A stretch of 50,351 nt of DNA from Crocinitomicaceae bacterium (GTDB lineage Bacteria > Bacteroidota > Bacteroidia > Flavobacteriales_G > Salibacteraceae): positions 1 through 50,351 of the forward strand of contig PAVO01000021.1 in the NCBI GenBank assembly GCA_002713215.1, written 5' to 3'. Position 1 is the stretch's first letter, and each line of letters opens with the position of its first letter. The translations under genes were made by a program, and so were the position numbers. This document shows positions 19,295-26,870 of the stretch, one piece after another. Below the pieces are notes generated by a model. The model ran no database searches. It was not told the origin of the DNA and saw only the letters and a program-made list of their open reading frames with translations.

Positions 19295-19927
19295 TTATTT
19301 TCCTTCCAATAGGAGTTCAATATCCTCAATTAGTCGCTCAGTTTCTAATGCGTTGGTTCCGTTATAGATTCCTCTAATGTGGGCATTTTGGTCTACCAAA
19401 ATTATATGTTCCGTGTGCAGAAACTGACTAGAATCTTTTGAAAACCCAGGCTCTTCTTCCGCAAAATAGGAATAACGTGCGAGGGAGTATATGTCTTTCT
19501 TATCTCCCGTAAGCAGGTGCCAATTGGAAGTATTAATTTTCATGGTTTCGGCATACTCTTTAAGCCTGGGCACTGAATCGATCCAAGGGGTGACCGTATG
19601 AGATAAGATTAAAAACTCATTGCTGTTTGCAAACTCCGATTGTACCGTTCGAAGGTTGTTCATCATTTTAGGGCAAACGCTTGGGCATGCTGTAAAAAAG
19701 AAGTTCGCTACATATATTTTTCCGTTGGTTTTTGAATCGGTGATATTGGTTCCACCGTTGGATGTAAAACTAAATTCACCTATTTGATGCAGCGTGTCAA
19801 CATAAGGAGAATTTGTGCTCATCCAAATGGCCTTAAAACTTGGCTCATGGTAATACGGAACTCGTGAGTTCTCTTCTCTACAAGACCACAGAGTCAACAC
19901 CAGTACGCAAAACACTGTCCACTTCAT
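19295..19927 (-). CDS. SCO1/SenC family copper protein (lipoprotein)
   Basis: A thioredoxin-fold protein of 210 residues from ATG 19927, chosen because MKWTVFCVLVLTLWSC is a standard lipoprotein signal (an ATG at 19936 is also possible). It has the copper-binding CPSVC (Cys81, Cys85) and the distal His171 in FLHTEH, all the ligands of SCO proteins. SCO proteins deliver copper to the CuA site of cytochrome c oxidase or serve as thiol-disulfide redox switches. No oxidase gene is in the window. It is last in a five-gene minus-strand cluster and overlaps the MORN gene by about 50 bases. Confidence 0.88.
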   Translation of the reverse strand: MKWTVFCVLVLTLWSCREENSRVPYYHEPSFKAIWMSTNSPYVDTLHQIGEFSFTSNGGTNITDSKTNGKIYVANFFFTACPSVCPKMMNNLRTVQSEFANSNEFLILSHTVTPWIDSVPRLKEYAETMKINTSNWHLLTGDKKDIYSLARYSYFAEEEPGFSKDSSQFLHTEHIILVDQNAHIRGIYNGTNALETERLIEDIELLLEGK

Positions 19928-20483
19928 CCCAAACATTTTCGCAATTTTTGACTCCTACCAGGCCGTATCGGCGTCCATTTTTAATTTCGTAATTGGCCTT
20001 AATTCTTCCATCCCTTTTCCACATTTTCTGAATTCCTGTTTCCTGGCCCTTCGAATAATTAAAAACCCGATAAAGCTGACCGGAAGCGTACCATTCTTTT
20101 AGTTCGCCTTCAAATTCATCGTCCTTAAAATGATACAAAAATTGCATTTGCCCATTTTTCCACCAACCAGTATGAATCCCTTCTTTAGCCCCCTTTTTAT
20201 AATAGCGTTTTGATTTTGGCTTGCCGTTGTCGTAATATTCCAAACTCCATCCTTCTTCCTGGCCATTTAAAAATGGGGTGTAAATAATGGTGTCCGTATT
20301 ATTTGCGATTAAACCGGAATAACCTGAATACGGTAAGTTATTATATAGCAATACTCCTTGTTCAAATCGGAAACTTGAATCCGAATTAGCAATAAATTGG
20401 TTTGGGATTTCTACTGCCGGTATTTCAGAATTACAGGATACGAAAAGCCAAATGCTACTGAGTAACAGTGCCAGGCGTACCAT
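19878..20483 (-). CDS. MORN-repeat (YwqK-like) lipoprotein
   Basis: A 201-residue protein from ATG 20483, chosen because MVRLALLLSSIWLFVSC is a clean lipoprotein signal; ATGs at 20492 and 20498 would add acidic residues before it. The mature part holds four to five MORN-variant repeats (GWSLEYYDNGKPKS, GIHTGWWKNGQMQ, GELKEWYASGQLY, GIQKMWKRDGRIK), as in the YwqK group. These are extended beta-hairpin repeats that mediate binding. It overlaps both neighbours (YHYH and SCO1), implying tightly coupled expression and a shared outer-leaflet location. Confidence 0.82.
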   Translation of the reverse strand: MVRLALLLSSIWLFVSCNSEIPAVEIPNQFIANSDSSFRFEQGVLLYNNLPYSGYSGLIANNTDTIIYTPFLNGQEEGWSLEYYDNGKPKSKRYYKKGAKEGIHTGWWKNGQMQFLYHFKDDEFEGELKEWYASGQLYRVFNYSKGQETGIQKMWKRDGRIKANYEIKNGRRYGLVGVKNCENVWDEVDSVLRTGVDSVVL

Positions 20484-21216
20484 AAAAACCATCTCCATTT
20501 ATATAAGGATCAGTTGAAGTTATATGGTAATGATATATTCCATTGGGATAATCTGCGGTGGCATGAGAATGCCCATGATAATTGTCCAAATCAGCATTGG
20601 TAACCGTTTTCCCGTTTTCCACGGGGCCATACACCGGAAACCCATCCAATAAAAAACCGAGTAGTACACTACTTCCTTGAGCACCGGTTAAGTAGGTAGG
20701 CTCCAAATGGTAGTGATACATACCTTGTTGTTGAGGATGTCCGGCATATTGATCAAAGGTGTTAATCTCATTCGACAGGTCATCACCTGGAGCTGCGTTT
20801 TGATTAAAAAAGGCTACACCGTTAATAGCAACTCCAATAGCTCCCATTGGGGTTGCCGATTTATTCGCGGCCTCTGTAGGAGTGTGTGGGATTTTGAATG
20901 TGAAGTTTATTGCGGCAATTTTATTTGGGTTTTGATTGTAAGCCGAGTTATTGCCATTGTACGCTTCGTAGAGTGTGGATTCCCATTCGGTTCCTTTATA
21001 ATAAGGGCTTTTATGATCCGGCCTTCCGTTTGTTTTAATAACGATAAATTCGCCGTCCTGATATACTTCTGAGGCCGCATAAACTTTCTTATACACGGTT
21101 AAATCGACTGATGTAGAAGGGGTTGGACTTGTGTCTTCATCTTTATCTTTTTTACAAGAGGAAAAGGCTAATAATGAAGCAACCAAAGCCAGGCAGAATA
21201 AGTTCGCGTTTTTCAT
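20455..21216 (-). CDS. YHYH-domain lipoprotein
   Basis: A 253-residue protein. The lipobox gives Cys21 (AFSSCKK), then a DK/DE-rich linker to about residue 38. The YHYH domain (Pfam family named for this motif) has two copies of the signature, GMYHYHLEP and GIYHYHITS, plus YHGHSHAT between them and GRPDHKSPYY earlier. The dense histidines make metal binding likely, though this is not shown for the family. It ends inside the MORN gene (about 29-44 bases overlap) and starts 11 bases after the preceding lipoprotein gene. Confidence 0.88.
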   Translation of the reverse strand: MKNANLFCLALVASLLAFSSCKKDKDEDTSPTPSTSVDLTVYKKVYAASEVYQDGEFIVIKTNGRPDHKSPYYKGTEWESTLYEAYNGNNSAYNQNPNKIAAINFTFKIPHTPTEAANKSATPMGAIGVAINGVAFFNQNAAPGDDLSNEINTFDQYAGHPQQQGMYHYHLEPTYLTGAQGSSVLLGFLLDGFPVYGPVENGKTVTNADLDNYHGHSHATADYPNGIYHYHITSTDPYINGDGFYGTPGTVTQ

Positions 21217-21227
21217 AATTGTAAATT

Positions 21228-21731
21228 TTAAGCAGGTACTTCTTCTACATCAAAATACCTGAGGTACTGTGCAATTAATTCATCTATTTTTTTGATGCTG
21301 GCATCTGCATCTTCGTAGGAGGCAGCATTCTGAGCAGCGGTAACATTTTCCAGTATTGGGTGTAATACTGCATGTAACTGCTCATGAGCTTCTCCTTTCA
21401 TCGTGCAATTCTTAATAATGTAATTGCATTGATATTGAAGTTCACCCGTTAGTTCTGCGTAATTTCTATTGTCTTCATGCGTTTCGTAAAACCCTTTTAT
21501 GATGACTTGCATCATCAACATACCTTCCGATGTTTCAGGGTTAGCTAACCATTTTTGTCCATCATTAAATTGCAAAAGGTCATCAGGTTGTTTCGTACTC
21601 TCTGTTTTTGTAGGAGCTGTTTCCTCTACCGATTCTGCTGCAGGCGCCTCTTTTGCGTCGGTTGCCGATCCTGGATCACCACAGGAACTTATTAAAAGTG
21701 AGAAAACAACTAGCTTTAATATGGATTTCAT
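21228..21731 (-). CDS. Hypothetical His/Met/Cys-rich helical lipoprotein
   Basis: A 167-residue lipoprotein with Cys17 as lipidation site (LLISSC), an acidic/Ala/Thr linker to about residue 50, then a helical domain resembling a four-helix bundle. Candidate metal or heme ligands cluster in one helix: Cys102, Cys109, Met111, then His116, His120 and His124 at i, i+4, i+8. The block FNDGQKWLANPET and CTMKGEAHEQLH recur, as far as I recall, in related lipoproteins of Flavobacteriales without assigned function. It lies 71 bases downstream of the cytochrome gene. Confidence 0.75.
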   Translation of the reverse strand: MKSILKLVVFSLLISSCGDPGSATDAKEAPAAESVEETAPTKTESTKQPDDLLQFNDGQKWLANPETSEGMLMMQVIIKGFYETHEDNRNYAELTGELQYQCNYIIKNCTMKGEAHEQLHAVLHPILENVTAAQNAASYEDADASIKKIDELIAQYLRYFDVEEVPA

Positions 21732-21802
21732 TATTGATAAGATTTAATTGCACCCAAAGTAAATAAAACTAACAGGATGGTAGAAATATTTTATGTTCAC
21801 CA

Positions 21803-24250
21803 TTAGTTTTTTCTCTGAGCTCTAATTTTTCGTACAACAAGAAAGAGGGTTAAGGTTAAAATAGCTCCAATTAAGACTTGCATCCAGGCACTCAGCAACA
21901 AGATTTTATTAAGCATGAAGTTATGAAAGTTTGTATCCACCTTTTGGCCGGAGTATTCCTTCATATGAACCAATAGGCTAACCGCTAAATCTTTGTCTGG
22001 AATTTCTTGATGGCAGCCTTGGCAAACGCCTCGTCGATCGAGTTTTCCCCTTTCTTCCTTGTTTAGTGGCCTTGACCCTTTGAAGTGGTGCCCTACGGTT
22101 TGCAACTGTTCACTGGTTTCCGTTATAAAACGACTCCAATCGTGATCCAATTCAGGAATAGCACCAATTTGATTTATCGTACAGTCGGCAATTGCATTTC
22201 CTTCCGCGTCTTGCAAGTCAATGGTGTATCCTTTACTTGGGTCAGCCAGAAGTTCACCCGATTGAATTCCATACCCCATTGCTTTTGGATTGTTATGACA
22301 ACTTTCGCAACTTCTACCTTTTTTAGATACTGTGTGGGTATGAGTTACTGCCATATCCAGGGCTTTTTGACCTTCTTCACCGGCTCCTTCCGAATTAGAA
22401 ATCCGATAGATGTGATTGAGCAACAAGGGCACCGAATCTTTACCAATTATCGTAATGGAAGTCTGGCAACCCGGAATGGATGGAGCAATTCTATTTTCTC
22501 CATTTACGGCTAATGGAGGGTCTTCAAATCGCAAATAACTTCTTTCTTCGCTGACCAGACCGTCGATTTGATGTTGATCATTTTCTCCCCTCATTTCAGC
22601 GGTTATACCTGCTTCGTCATGAGCCAGGCCCATAGATACCCAATCCTCCTTGGTCATGTTTTTTGAATAATCGATTTTTATGTGACAGCCATAGCATTGA
22701 GGTGCCCAATCATCATGGCAGGCATAACATTCCATATTATCAATATGACCATCAACATTAACCATGGCTACAATACCTTCTTCACTAAGCTCGTTATCCT
22801 CCAGTAATTTTTTTAAGGGTGAAAATTCAATGTCTTTTCCGCCGGCAGAATGTAGGATAACCTGATCTCCGTTTTTTACCAATTGGGGTAGTGGATTGCC
22901 TCTGGCGGAGATTAAATACCCGTCTTTTGGTTCTACCACGGTACCTTGCTTGAAATGTTCCAACAGGTCTTTGGTTACTCCACGGGCTTTGCCTTCGGCT
23001 GGAACAACACCATCGATTTCATCGCTATAACCAATTGGTAATTCCCAGGGAAATTTTTGAGGGGTACCATGGCAATCCTGACATTCAATTTCAACCGCTC
23101 CCAGGGTGCTTCCTGCTAATATTCCGGAGCTATGAACGTCGCCACTGGTATGACAATCCTGGCACATCATTCCTTTGTCTTTATGAATATCGGCATGCAG
23201 TTGAATGTACTTTTTACCAAATGTTTCTTCCTGTTCTTCACCACCTCCCATAAATGGTGCTGAATAGGCGGTTTCGAACAAGCCCATATAAGAAGTTCCT
23301 ATTCTTCTTCCACGATTGTGGCAGGTAACACAAGTACGCGACGGTATTCCGGAATATTCTTTTCCGTGAACGTTTACTTTACATTCCCGGGTACTTTGAA
23401 AACTGTGAACCAATGGATGTCCTGGTTCTGTCCTGGAAATACTCAAGTCATTTCCTTCGTAGTATCCTTGGGTGGAGTATGGAACATGGCAGGATGAACA
23501 TCCAATACCGCGAAATTCACCTTTTCTCATACTTCCCTGGCCACCGGTATGGCACCGTTGGCATTCTTGTCGTATGTAGGTAAATACTGCTTTTTGTGGA
23601 TCCTTCATAACCTGGTCGGCATCAGGAGCCAGAGGCAATTGCTTCATTTTTGAGGGGAAAACATTGGGCTCAATTTCCTTTAATTTTTGCATGTAAGCTT
23701 TATGAATCTCGGTTCCCAATTGCTCATGAAGAGGAAGCTCTTCCACATCAAAATTCGCCCAATCGTGTTTATATCCATTGGGGGCTCCAAATCCCCATTG
23801 AGTTCCCTGAATTTTTCCGGCTTCAGTAAACATAAGAGAAGTAAATTGAGGTTTAACCTGGGCCTCGTGGCAACCTCCACAGGTATTTTGATTGATCCAG
23901 GGACTTCCCGGATCGGGATAAAACTCCTTAGGGCCTTGATGGTTGATGAAGTAATCGACCGTTCCCTTGTGCGCTATTTTCTTGTCCTTAGATGTTGGGT
24001 TCCCACCATGACAAACAATGCAGTCATTTCCTTTGAAACTGGCTTTTTCCGCCACCTTCAGAATCTCTTTCATCATTTCAGATTCATAAGAACGAATGGG
24101 CTCAATTCCACCATGGCAGCTTAAGCATTGGTTTTCGCCGGTAGGTCCTTTTAGCTCATCCAGTTCCTCAGGATTTGGTTCAAAAGTTTTATTTGCTCCC
24201 AATAGGGCAAAAAGAACTACTCCCGATAGAACTAGTAAATGTTTTTTCAT
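21803..24250 (-). CDS. Twelve-heme c-type cytochrome with C-terminal membrane anchor
   Basis: An 815-residue protein with an N-terminal signal segment (MKKHLLVLSGVVLFALLGA) and twelve CxxCH heme sites at Cys42, 77, 124, 230, 251, 307, 363, 390, 508, 519, 648 and 743. Two heme-free stretches (about 395-507 and 524-647) may be extra domains. A single span at about 783-805 with a basic tail (RKIRAQRKN) anchors it, leaving the hemes in the periplasm. It is not a pentaheme NrfA, octaheme HAO or ACIII subunit by count and length. It starts a cluster with YHYH and SCO1 lipoproteins. A role in periplasmic electron transfer is sure; the partner and acceptor are unknown. Confidence 0.9.
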   Translation of the reverse strand: MKKHLLVLSGVVLFALLGANKTFEPNPEELDELKGPTGENQCLSCHGGIEPIRSYESEMMKEILKVAEKASFKGNDCIVCHGGNPTSKDKKIAHKGTVDYFINHQGPKEFYPDPGSPWINQNTCGGCHEAQVKPQFTSLMFTEAGKIQGTQWGFGAPNGYKHDWANFDVEELPLHEQLGTEIHKAYMQKLKEIEPNVFPSKMKQLPLAPDADQVMKDPQKAVFTYIRQECQRCHTGGQGSMRKGEFRGIGCSSCHVPYSTQGYYEGNDLSISRTEPGHPLVHSFQSTRECKVNVHGKEYSGIPSRTCVTCHNRGRRIGTSYMGLFETAYSAPFMGGGEEQEETFGKKYIQLHADIHKDKGMMCQDCHTSGDVHSSGILAGSTLGAVEIECQDCHGTPQKFPWELPIGYSDEIDGVVPAEGKARGVTKDLLEHFKQGTVVEPKDGYLISARGNPLPQLVKNGDQVILHSAGGKDIEFSPLKKLLEDNELSEEGIVAMVNVDGHIDNMECYACHDDWAPQCYGCHIKIDYSKNMTKEDWVSMGLAHDEAGITAEMRGENDQHQIDGLVSEERSYLRFEDPPLAVNGENRIAPSIPGCQTSITIIGKDSVPLLLNHIYRISNSEGAGEEGQKALDMAVTHTHTVSKKGRSCESCHNNPKAMGYGIQSGELLADPSKGYTIDLQDAEGNAIADCTINQIGAIPELDHDWSRFITETSEQLQTVGHHFKGSRPLNKEERGKLDRRGVCQGCHQEIPDKDLAVSLLVHMKEYSGQKVDTNFHNFMLNKILLLSAWMQVLIGAILTLTLFLVVRKIRAQRKN

Positions 24251-24450: not shown

Positions 24451-24518
24451 CGAAGGATTGAGATAGGTTTATCGTCTAATCAGATATTCGGTATCAAAAC
24501 AATCTTTAAAACGTAATA

Positions 24519-26870
24519 ATGAAATTAAGTATCCATTTAATAATCGTGCTCACCCTGGGTATTGCCGGGAGAATAATTGGACAGGATTTACCATTAGAAT
24601 TTAATTATTCTGTAGATAGCCATCGACTAATCGTTGGCAATACAGTTACAACAGGTTTTTACGACGAAACGCAAATAGACACCATTTACCTTCAATTTTC
24701 TCAAACCAATTACTGGAACCAGTTGGATCAAAACTATGAGGATAAAATTGAGTTGCCGGCCACCCTCACGCACAATGGGGTTACCTACGATAGTGTAGGT
24801 GTTCGGTTTAAGGGACAAACATCGTATAAGCGTTTGGGCAATAAAGACAAAAAATCTTTTGCAATTACCCTTGATGCCTTTATTGATAATCAGGATGTGG
24901 AAGGGTATGAGGGATTGAACCTAAATAACGCCTTTGAAGATGAATCTCACATGCGTGAAGTGCTGTACCTGAATGCAATTCGAAAGCATATTTATGCGGC
25001 AAAAGGAAACTTTATTCATCTATATATAAATGGGCAGGACTGGGGCATATACCCAAATATTCAAAACCTGAACGCCGAACACGTCGATGAATGGTTTTTG
25101 GATCGGGATGCTACTCGTTGGAGATGTGAACGAACAACAACTGGTCGTCCAGGGCCAGGAGGTAATTTTAATACTGGATTCTCTACCCTTAATTATTTAG
25201 GAGATAACTCTACTGACTATACTCCGCATTACACGTTGAAAAATGCTGAGAAACAGGACCCCTGGCAAGATTTAATTGTGGCATGTAGTCTAATTGAAAA
25301 GACCAATTCTTCTGCAATGGTAGATCTGCTAAACGATCATTTTGACTTAGATCAGGCCTTATGGTTTCTTGCTGCTGAAATAATTTATACCGATGACGAT
25401 AGCTATGTATATAAAGGTGGTATGGACTATTACGTATATTTTGACGTTGCTACTGATAGACTTGTGCCCATTGAATATGATGGAAATTCTGGGATGGCAT
25501 TAAATAAAGCCAAGACATGGACACCGTTTTATAATGAAACAGATAACCGATTTCCATTGCTATATGTATTGATGAAGGTTCCGGAAATTCGACAGCGATA
25601 TTTGGCTCATTTCAGAACAATGATGGAGACATCATTTGATACAACAGCAATGATGTCAAGGATTGATTACTACTCCAATTTGATTGCTCAACGGTATGCC
25701 AATGATCCCAAGAAGTTGTACACCGTTCAGGAGTTTAACACTGAAATTGCTAACCTAAAGCAGTTCGTACGTGACCGTGATTCATTTTTACGATCTAATT
25801 CTGAGTTTAAAGAACAAGGAGTTGGAATATCTTCAGTGTCTCATTTTGTTAACGGGAAGCAGTGGGGTAGTCCTGAAAATACCGATTCTGTTTTGGTATT
25901 GGCAACAGCAGCAAGCACAACATTACTTAAATCAATGAACTTATATTATGGAACCGGCTTGGCCGGGCGATTTAAGAGCACTGCAATGTATGATGATGGA
26001 ATGCATGGAGACGGAGCAGCTGGTGATGGACAATTTGGAGGATACATTCCGGCGCAAACCGGAGGACAGTATATACGGTATTACATTGAATCGGTTGCCA
26101 ATAATTCTGCAAATAGTAGGGCCTATGAACCCGTTGGTGCAGAGCATGACGTGTACATTTATCGAGTAAACAGTGGTGTAAAAGTGGCTTCTGATGTTGT
26201 GATTAATGAATTGATGTCATCAAATAAATTAGGTTATGCGGATCCATCTGGTGAATATGATGATTGGGTTGAATTGTATAACAATGGAAGCACAACCATG
26301 GATCTTACAGGTTATTATTTAACGGACAACAATGCCGAATTTCTACAATGGGAGTTTCCAAAAGGTACCACCATTGATCCCGGGGGTTATTTAATTGTTT
26401 GGTGCGATGGAGACGAGGGGCAATCCGGATTGCATGCCAATTTCAAGCTTTCCGCCAATGGCGAGCAGGTATTGCTGATCAATTCTGACGGTAATATTGC
26501 AGATGAAGTAACCTTTGACTATTACTTCTCAAATTATGGTTTTGCACGAGTTCCGAATGGAACAGGAAACTTTCAATGGCAGCTAATGACTCCTCTGGCT
26601 AACAATGAGACTTCTTCGGTTGACGATTTAATGGCTGCAGCTGCTAGTATTTCTGTTTATCCAAACCCCGCGAATTCAAGTTTTACGCTTAGGAGAAGCG
26701 AAGGAACCGGAGCAGAACATGTTGCTATTCTTAATATTCAGGGAGTTGTGGTGTTTGAACTGGAGATGAATGATTATTCGGCCGATGTAGATGTTTCTGA
26801 TTGGAACAGCGGAGTTTATATCATTAAAACCCAGGACGGAAATACAAAGAGACTGGTGGTTAAGCCATAG
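24519..26870 (+). CDS. CotH-kinase / lamin-tail protein with T9SS sorting domain
   Basis: A 783-residue secreted protein. The signal peptide ends near residue 22 (IIGQ). A CotH-type domain covers about 50-400, with GVRFKGQTSYKRLGNKDKKSF (94-114), INGQDWGIYPNIQNL (170-184) and PIEYDGNSG (317-325). CotH proteins are atypical secreted kinases first known from spore coats. A middle beta domain contains GMHGDGAAGDGQF. A lamin-tail domain (about 562-680) begins INELMSSN and is followed by the sorting domain from VYPNPANSSF to the C-terminal KRLVVKP. T9SS export to the cell surface is expected. The substrate is unknown. Confidence 0.88.
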   Translation: MKLSIHLIIVLTLGIAGRIIGQDLPLEFNYSVDSHRLIVGNTVTTGFYDETQIDTIYLQFSQTNYWNQLDQNYEDKIELPATLTHNGVTYDSVGVRFKGQTSYKRLGNKDKKSFAITLDAFIDNQDVEGYEGLNLNNAFEDESHMREVLYLNAIRKHIYAAKGNFIHLYINGQDWGIYPNIQNLNAEHVDEWFLDRDATRWRCERTTTGRPGPGGNFNTGFSTLNYLGDNSTDYTPHYTLKNAEKQDPWQDLIVACSLIEKTNSSAMVDLLNDHFDLDQALWFLAAEIIYTDDDSYVYKGGMDYYVYFDVATDRLVPIEYDGNSGMALNKAKTWTPFYNETDNRFPLLYVLMKVPEIRQRYLAHFRTMMETSFDTTAMMSRIDYYSNLIAQRYANDPKKLYTVQEFNTEIANLKQFVRDRDSFLRSNSEFKEQGVGISSVSHFVNGKQWGSPENTDSVLVLATAASTTLLKSMNLYYGTGLAGRFKSTAMYDDGMHGDGAAGDGQFGGYIPAQTGGQYIRYYIESVANNSANSRAYEPVGAEHDVYIYRVNSGVKVASDVVINELMSSNKLGYADPSGEYDDWVELYNNGSTTMDLTGYYLTDNNAEFLQWEFPKGTTIDPGGYLIVWCDGDEGQSGLHANFKLSANGEQVLLINSDGNIADEVTFDYYFSNYGFARVPNGTGNFQWQLMTPLANNETSSVDDLMAAAASISVYPNPANSSFTLRRSEGTGAEHVAILNIQGVVVFELEMNDYSADVDVSDWNSGVYIIKTQDGNTKRLVVKP

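Follow-up and report, generated by a model that had tools for sequence, protein, structure and literature searches.

A conserved YHYH-MORN-SCO1 lipoprotein operon of Bacteroidota with a probable role in envelope copper handling

SCO1 proteins mature CuA sites, MbnH is a MauG-like copper protein, and CnrYXH stands with a resistance-nodulation-division (RND) efflux pump. Here we describe a trio of lipoprotein genes, encoding a YHYH protein, a MORN_2-repeat protein and an SCO1/SenC protein, in a 50,351-nucleotide stretch of DNA from a Crocinitomicaceae bacterium (the window; assembly GCA_002713215.1, contig PAVO01000021.1, positions 1 to 50,351 of the forward strand). We find that this trio is a conserved unit, widely kept in Bacteroidota and in some Ignavibacteria. 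An earlier, sequence-only reading of the window had proposed a five-gene redox module in which the trio was joined by a 12-heme cytochrome c and a helical lipoprotein; the conserved operon is the trio and not this five-gene set. No description of a YHYH-SCO1 operon was recognised in the literature searched, which covered few subscription papers, and within the papers searched the trio is an operon without a description. YHYH is a common family for which no known function or solved relative was found in this analysis. A passage of a jumbo-phage survey predicts YHYH to be a zinc-binding hydrolase (PMC7824862), and a passage of a pelagimyophage paper places it among host-recognition domains (PMC7029224). 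The partner proteins MbnP and MbnH are described in part of a methanobactin survey as mysterious and as conserved far beyond methanobactin producers (PMC3621798).

All three trio genes lie on the minus strand. The YHYH gene (20455..21216; 253 residues) matches PF14240 at 89.1 bits against a cut-off of 25, the MORN gene (19878..20498; 206 residues) matches PF07661 at 33.2 bits (cut-off, 29.6) and the SCO1 gene (19295..19936; 213 residues) matches PF02630 at 88.4 bits (cut-off, 22.8). The open reading frames (ORFs) of adjacent trio genes overlap, by 44 bases for YHYH with MORN and by 59 for MORN with SCO1, as judged from ORF calls with unproven starts. Matches to simple promoter and terminator patterns in the locus were no more frequent than expected by chance. 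A profile scan of named genomes yielded 527 confirmed YHYH candidates, of which the best 80 were taken as loci (numbered L here; genomes are numbered G and contigs C). By title these are mostly from Bacteroidota, with four from Ignavibacteria. When all ORFs were counted, MORN and SCO1 genes lay on the strand of YHYH in 76 of the 80, a figure that indicates conservation and is not a random sample, because YHYH similarity was the basis of selection and the loci are related to one another. The order was YHYH-MORN-SCO1 in 74 loci and YHYH-SCO1-MORN in two (L144 and L178). SCO1 was missing from L110, L123 and L152, and both SCO1 and MORN from L162; in these loci the contig ends 724, 675, 506 and 163 bases, respectively, after YHYH. 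In 72 of the 76 loci the YHYH and MORN genes overlapped or had no more than 154 bases between them; in the others the gap was 710 to 3,882 bases. Close relatives of the window's YHYH protein also precede MORN and SCO1 in L073-L075 and L077-L079, while L076 begins at the end of a contig, just behind MORN. In one Crocinitomix metagenome-assembled genome (L126, 5900-7900) the YHYH and SCO1 frames look split, perhaps by frameshifts.

The SCO1 proteins of the trio form a distinct set. They score 336 to 366 bits on the SCO1 profile in seven genomes, including the window's own, and all seven genomes with an SCO protein above 330 bits carry that protein inside the trio. SCO proteins outside the trio reach at most 245 bits, apart from a contig-cut copy in G086 at 266 bits; in that genome YHYH and MORN are on a different contig from the SCO copy. 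The trio might instead be dedicated to building the copper centre of a terminal oxidase, as the role of SCO1 in maturing CuA sites would allow. However, no ORF resembling an oxidase turned up when the 80 loci were screened with crude motifs. Moreover, the genome of the window has two further SCO-type genes outside the trio, one of which (L189, contig C6, 5522-6193) lies among genes resembling a cytochrome oxidase operon and lacks CxxxC, and the other of which adjoins a small cytochrome c. We therefore consider an oxidase-assembly role very unlikely.

The trio proteins conserve residues of the metal-ligand type. The two YHYH motifs noticed from the sequence alone are present at residues 167-170 and 228-231 and are invariant in a 78-row alignment of YHYH proteins. 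Among 80 rows (the window's protein and those of the loci, with L177 dropped as short or X-containing and L126 a fragment), His160, His168, His170, His214, His216, His229, His231, Asp191 and Asp211 occur in every row, and His68 and the lipoprotein-type Cys21 in 79. This N-terminal cysteine is the only conserved cysteine of the trio's YHYH proteins. The assignment of the third gene as SCO1 with CxxxC and a distal histidine was likewise borne out, with its domain above the Pfam cut-off: Cys84, Cys88 and His174, as well as the N-terminal Cys19, are kept in 76 of 76 rows (the window's protein and those of the loci, minus three short or X-containing proteins). The profile aligns the distal histidine with that of Bacillus Sco, and the relatives in the PDB are 1xzo, 1on4 and 4hde. 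In the MORN protein, whose predicted repeats were also upheld by the Pfam match, 78 of the 81 rows (again the window's protein with those of the loci) have a lipoprotein-type Cys22, and 79 have Cys186, a cysteine near the C terminus. A simple lipobox pattern matched 45 of 79 YHYH, 51 of 80 MORN and 55 of 75 SCO1 proteins, in a set of sequences with many over-extended start codons; the window's SCO1 protein gave no match to this pattern. Lipidation of the trio proteins is therefore likely.

In many of the sampled genomes the trio is accompanied by regulatory genes that resemble a metal-sensing module. Clustering of neighbours by BLAST placed an extracytoplasmic function (ECF) sigma factor in 35 of the 80 YHYH loci, a sensor-like protein in 35 and both in 34; a small membrane protein accompanied the two in 27. 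The sigma factor was confirmed by Pfam in one representative (L136). The sigma and sensor genes normally lie upstream of YHYH, and in L111 and L172 they are divergent from the trio. A model of the sensor from L104 (predicted local distance difference test [pLDDT], 89.7) had CnrX structures as its top eight fold matches (Z of 11.5 to 10.5 over 104 to 109 residues), followed by matches that include Spy, NccX, ZraP and CpxP. In the sensor alignment, from which L132 was left out, His70 is present in 34 of 34 rows, His123 in 33 and Cys131 in 28; a residue-level match to CnrX was not obtained. The putative anti-sigma factor is a protein of about 90 to 110 residues with a membrane stretch seen by eye, and two representatives gave no meaningful family match.

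The same module also leads into a second kind of operon. Among 100 related genomes, the window's own included, 27 have the sensor, and 20 of the 26 loci outside the window's genome were examined. Genes for sigma, anti-sigma, sensor, MbnP, MbnH and YHYH are consecutive in 9 of these 20 (L260, L263, L264, L266-L269, L271 and L272). In L265 the contig breaks off behind MbnH, L270 shows MbnH alone, and L278 runs from sigma, anti-sigma and sensor through an EF-hand gene, two YHYH genes and MORN to a contig end; no YHYH gene adjoins the sensor in the remaining eight. The MbnP proteins tested scored 115.9 to 138.2 bits on the Pfam model against a cut-off of 27 (three of three). Of the 34 loci with both sigma factor and sensor, most have the trio directly behind the module, and nine of the 20 relatives' loci have MbnP-MbnH-YHYH there; the remaining neighbours were judged by eye.

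A promoter motif links some of these operons. The motif CGCAAGTTTT-N12-CATCTAAT was learned from 32 regions upstream of sigma genes. With spacers of 14 to 18 bases it was missed; it was then seen by eye upstream of sigma, and the model was refitted with spacers of 11 to 14 and seeds from those regions. Spacer and seed were hence chosen after viewing the training set, of which the YHYH upstream regions were not a part. The motif reached at least the 99% shuffle level in 16 of the 32 training regions, and in 13 of those 16 it lay 0 to 60 bases from the start. Upstream of YHYH, 22 of 79 loci had scores no lower than the 99th percentile for 574 other genes from the same loci, where 0.8 loci (1%) would be expected (binomial p of 1.1e-25, uncorrected for relatedness). 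For 16 of these loci the distance from the match to the annotated start was 0 to 60 bases; six of the 22 carried neither a sigma nor a sensor gene. Cultured carriers with both an adjacent sigma module and the motif include Agaribacillus aureus BMA12 (L170) and Niastella vici DJ57 (L131). The motif was likewise seen ahead of an MbnH-like di-heme gene in L116 (22.6 bits) and of a CueO-like multicopper oxidase gene, cut by the contig end, in L104 (15.6 bits, at about the 99th percentile). Second YHYH genes were seen beside the trio in L112, L122, L168, L169 and L174, the last with the motif upstream at 16.1 bits.

Our results suggest, with a probability of roughly 0.65, that the trio is an envelope copper-handling operon under a CnrYXH-like sensor. 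The lipoproteins would handle copper in the periplasm or at a membrane: SCO1, through CxxxC and its distal histidine, may carry or reduce the metal; the His/Asp-rich YHYH protein would be the likely client that receives it from SCO1, either as a copper store or as a metal enzyme; and the MORN protein might tether the partners to one another. In many genomes the ECF sigma factor, held back by the small membrane protein and the CnrX-like, membrane-anchored metal sensor, would switch the operon on. The sequence-only reading had considered a copper-linked electron-transfer or metal-loading system plausible, and gene context supports a copper-linked, metal-loading role for three of its five genes: SCO1 is present wherever the contig reaches far enough (76 of 80 loci), 34 of 80 have the sensor together with an ECF sigma factor, and MbnP/MbnH or, in a single case, a multicopper oxidase occur nearby or in sister operons.

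Several observations weigh against this interpretation. Copper is read from gene context, and the copper role of MbnP-MbnH is taken from the family name. The MbnP proteins fall under the NCBIfam cut-off (35.7 to 41 bits against 140, three of three), and for the MbnH proteins MbnH is the best NCBIfam match, yet all four score below its cut-off (199 to 232.6 against 362.85). A multicopper oxidase (L104) and an MbnH-like gene (L116) each stand by one of the 80 trio loci. Half of the training regions, 16 of 32, have no motif, and it is likewise absent ahead of sigma in 13 modules of relatives, where the best score was 12.3 bits. Because MbnP and MbnH score below the NCBIfam cut-offs and these sister modules lack the motif, the copper interpretation is slightly weakened, as is its bolder form given below. 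The sensor reached the Pfam Metal_resist cut-off in two of the seven proteins tested (L147 and L170) and stayed below it in L104, L165, L271, L278 and L187; the likeness to CnrX rests on fold and gene order, because helical bundles easily reach a Z near 11. In the genome of the window, the sensor module lies by itself on a contig other than that of the trio, C41 (L187, 4221-5477; sigma, anti-sigma and CnrX-like sensor genes), and neither the trio nor the sigma gene has a motif match; the strict form of the motif has no match anywhere in this genome. From the upstream sequence, the sigma frame in L187 has no apparent ATG, GTG or TTG start before its conserved part. Among the 100 relatives the trio occurs in eight genomes, the sensor in 27 and both in three (the window's genome, G013 and G022), about the number expected by chance; G035, where the locus runs into a contig end, may also have both. 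Finally, the YHYH loci are related and were chosen by similarity, and neither the 76 of 80 nor the p value of the motif represents independent draws.

It is also possible that the metal is not copper. The YHYH protein could be a zinc-dependent envelope hydrolase, with SCO1 as a thiol-disulfide reductase for some other partner and a sensor that answers zinc, nickel or envelope stress. An AlphaFold2 model of YHYH built from 78 sequences (mean pLDDT, 91.2; predicted template modelling score, 0.82) gave nine matches at an E value of at most 0.001 in a library of viral structures, the five named ones being YHYH proteins, and it is for phage YHYH domains that zinc hydrolase activity has been predicted in the survey passage (PMC7824862), a point that again counts against copper. 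The fold of the sensor is shared by CnrX, ZraP, Spy and CpxP, as zinc or stress sensing would allow. On the other hand, the company that YHYH keeps is of the copper type (SCO1, MbnP, MbnH and once a CueO-like oxidase), and the YHYH proteins of the trio offer no conserved cysteine beyond the N-terminal one for SCO1 to reduce. We regard the zinc hydrolase explanation as unlikely.

Against the PDB the YHYH model had no Foldseek match at an E value of at most 0.001, and none of 113 chains aligned with VIA-align reached a Z of 2; the absence of a PDB relative does not prove a new fold. Returning to copper handling, a bolder form of that interpretation, which we put forward only tentatively and hold to be somewhat doubtful, is that YHYH proteins form a hitherto unrecognised class of copper proteins in the envelope, unique in structure and served by dedicated partners, SCO1 and MORN or MbnP and MbnH, under a copper-sensing ECF module of the CnrX type.

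The 12-heme cytochrome c, which stands upstream of the trio in the window (21803..24250, minus strand; 815 residues), looks like a separate gene that stands alone. Twelve CXXCH motifs were counted in it, as had been noted from the sequence, and all 12 are invariant across seven aligned orthologues; its supposed C-terminal anchor corresponds to a hydrophobic stretch judged by eye. Orthologues with 57 to 60% identity were found in six genomes besides its own in the search of 100, which also returned a distant relative in G003, and 8 of 395 genomes of the class, its own included, hold the gene (G095 being common to both samples). A protein-only scan of named genomes found no relatives. We examined the neighbourhoods of 12 orthologues (L010-L015 and L198-L203), and none holds any of the helical, YHYH, MORN or SCO1 genes. 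The downstream side was visible for 1.5 to 7.9 kb in ten of them; L012 and L201 are no real test of the trio side, because on that side their contigs stop 46 and 134 bases beyond the cytochrome. Neighbours were common only within genera, save for one membrane-protein family in L011, L012 and L014. Identification of the cytochrome as ExtM was rejected: it bears a weak similarity to this protein of selenite/tellurite operons (199 bits), but the curated cut-off is 800 bits and no ext operon was recognised by eye in the 12 neighbourhoods. The distant relative in G003 (L016) adjoins molybdopterin-oxidoreductase-, FeS- and NrfD-like genes and rhodaneses.

Between the cytochrome and the trio lies the helical lipoprotein gene (21228..21731, minus strand; 167 residues), which falls outside the conserved unit. 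The protein, with the pattern CxMx4Hx3H, matched no Pfam or NCBIfam family. Its own family was found in 21 of the 100 genomes, the window's included, and in an alignment of 26 rows, of which at least L071 and L072 look spurious, Cys109 (25 of 26), Met111 (24), His116 (23) and His120 (24) are conserved. The proposed ligands are thus retained apart from His124, which is absent from the columns conserved at 60% or more. The neighbourhoods of the family vary, with RND-type efflux genes in some loci by eye. In L093 and L099 homologues stand shortly before TolC/HlyD/AcrB-like efflux genes, also by eye, a hint that the helical family also meets metals or drugs.

A single envelope redox module of all five genes, in which the cytochrome would pass electrons to copper-bearing lipoproteins, would fit their shared strand and close spacing, with 71 bases between the cytochrome and the helical gene and 11 between the latter and YHYH. 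The ORFs of all five genes were confirmed on the minus strand, and, at this distance, the helical gene may be co-transcribed with YHYH in this genome. However, the five-gene synteny was found in none of the 12 cytochrome loci and none of the 80 YHYH loci. Neither a cytochrome nor a helical homologue was seen in any of the 80, viewed over up to 6 kb, and there was no helical homologue in the seven close trio loci. The module fails because the cytochrome and the helical gene are unlinked to the trio in every other locus examined, and in G020 the cytochrome gene sits on contig C6, separate from the trio on C88. Among the loci examined, the two genes adjoin the trio only in this genome, and we consider the five-gene module extremely unlikely. 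The striking cytochrome is hence a problem separate from the trio.

On the far side of the cytochrome, a CotH-LTD-T9SS protein is encoded on the plus strand (24519..26870) and may be associated with the trio, although the link is weak; CotH genes were also seen in the trio or YHYH loci L075, L278, L109, L118 and L126. The sigma promoter motif has its best match in the window 38 bases before this gene (24451..24480, plus strand; 17.8 bits), but the match is weak, since about 2.6 such matches are expected per window (48 of at least 17 bits per 915,566 bases, true sites included).

If the bolder form of the copper interpretation is correct, the trio would be part of a phylum-wide copper system that has so far gone undescribed. 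The association of YHYH with SCO1, MbnP/MbnH and a metal-sensing sigma module gives this family a testable role, a probable metal and a predicted promoter. Compared with described systems, the trio's SCO1 shares family, CxxxC and distal histidine with the SCO1/SenC copper chaperones but is distinct from them by score, is tied to YHYH and MORN, and has no oxidase-like neighbour that we could find. The YHYH protein resembles phage-tail YHYH domains through the viral fold matches of its model; the latter are tail proteins, whereas the former is a lipoprotein beside a member of a copper-chaperone family. With the MbnP-MbnH pair the likeness lies in a YHYH gene placed with the pair behind the same sigma/anti-sigma/sensor module, in nine of the 20 sensor loci of relatives, whereas the trio has no MbnP and is followed by an MbnH-like gene in one of 80 loci (L116). 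Like CnrYXH of Cupriavidus, which responds to nickel and cobalt, the regulatory module combines an ECF sigma factor, a small protein with an apparent membrane stretch and a membrane-anchored sensor of the CnrX fold in one operon; here, however, the module precedes YHYH, MORN and SCO1 rather than an RND pump, and in the genome of the window it is not adjacent to them.

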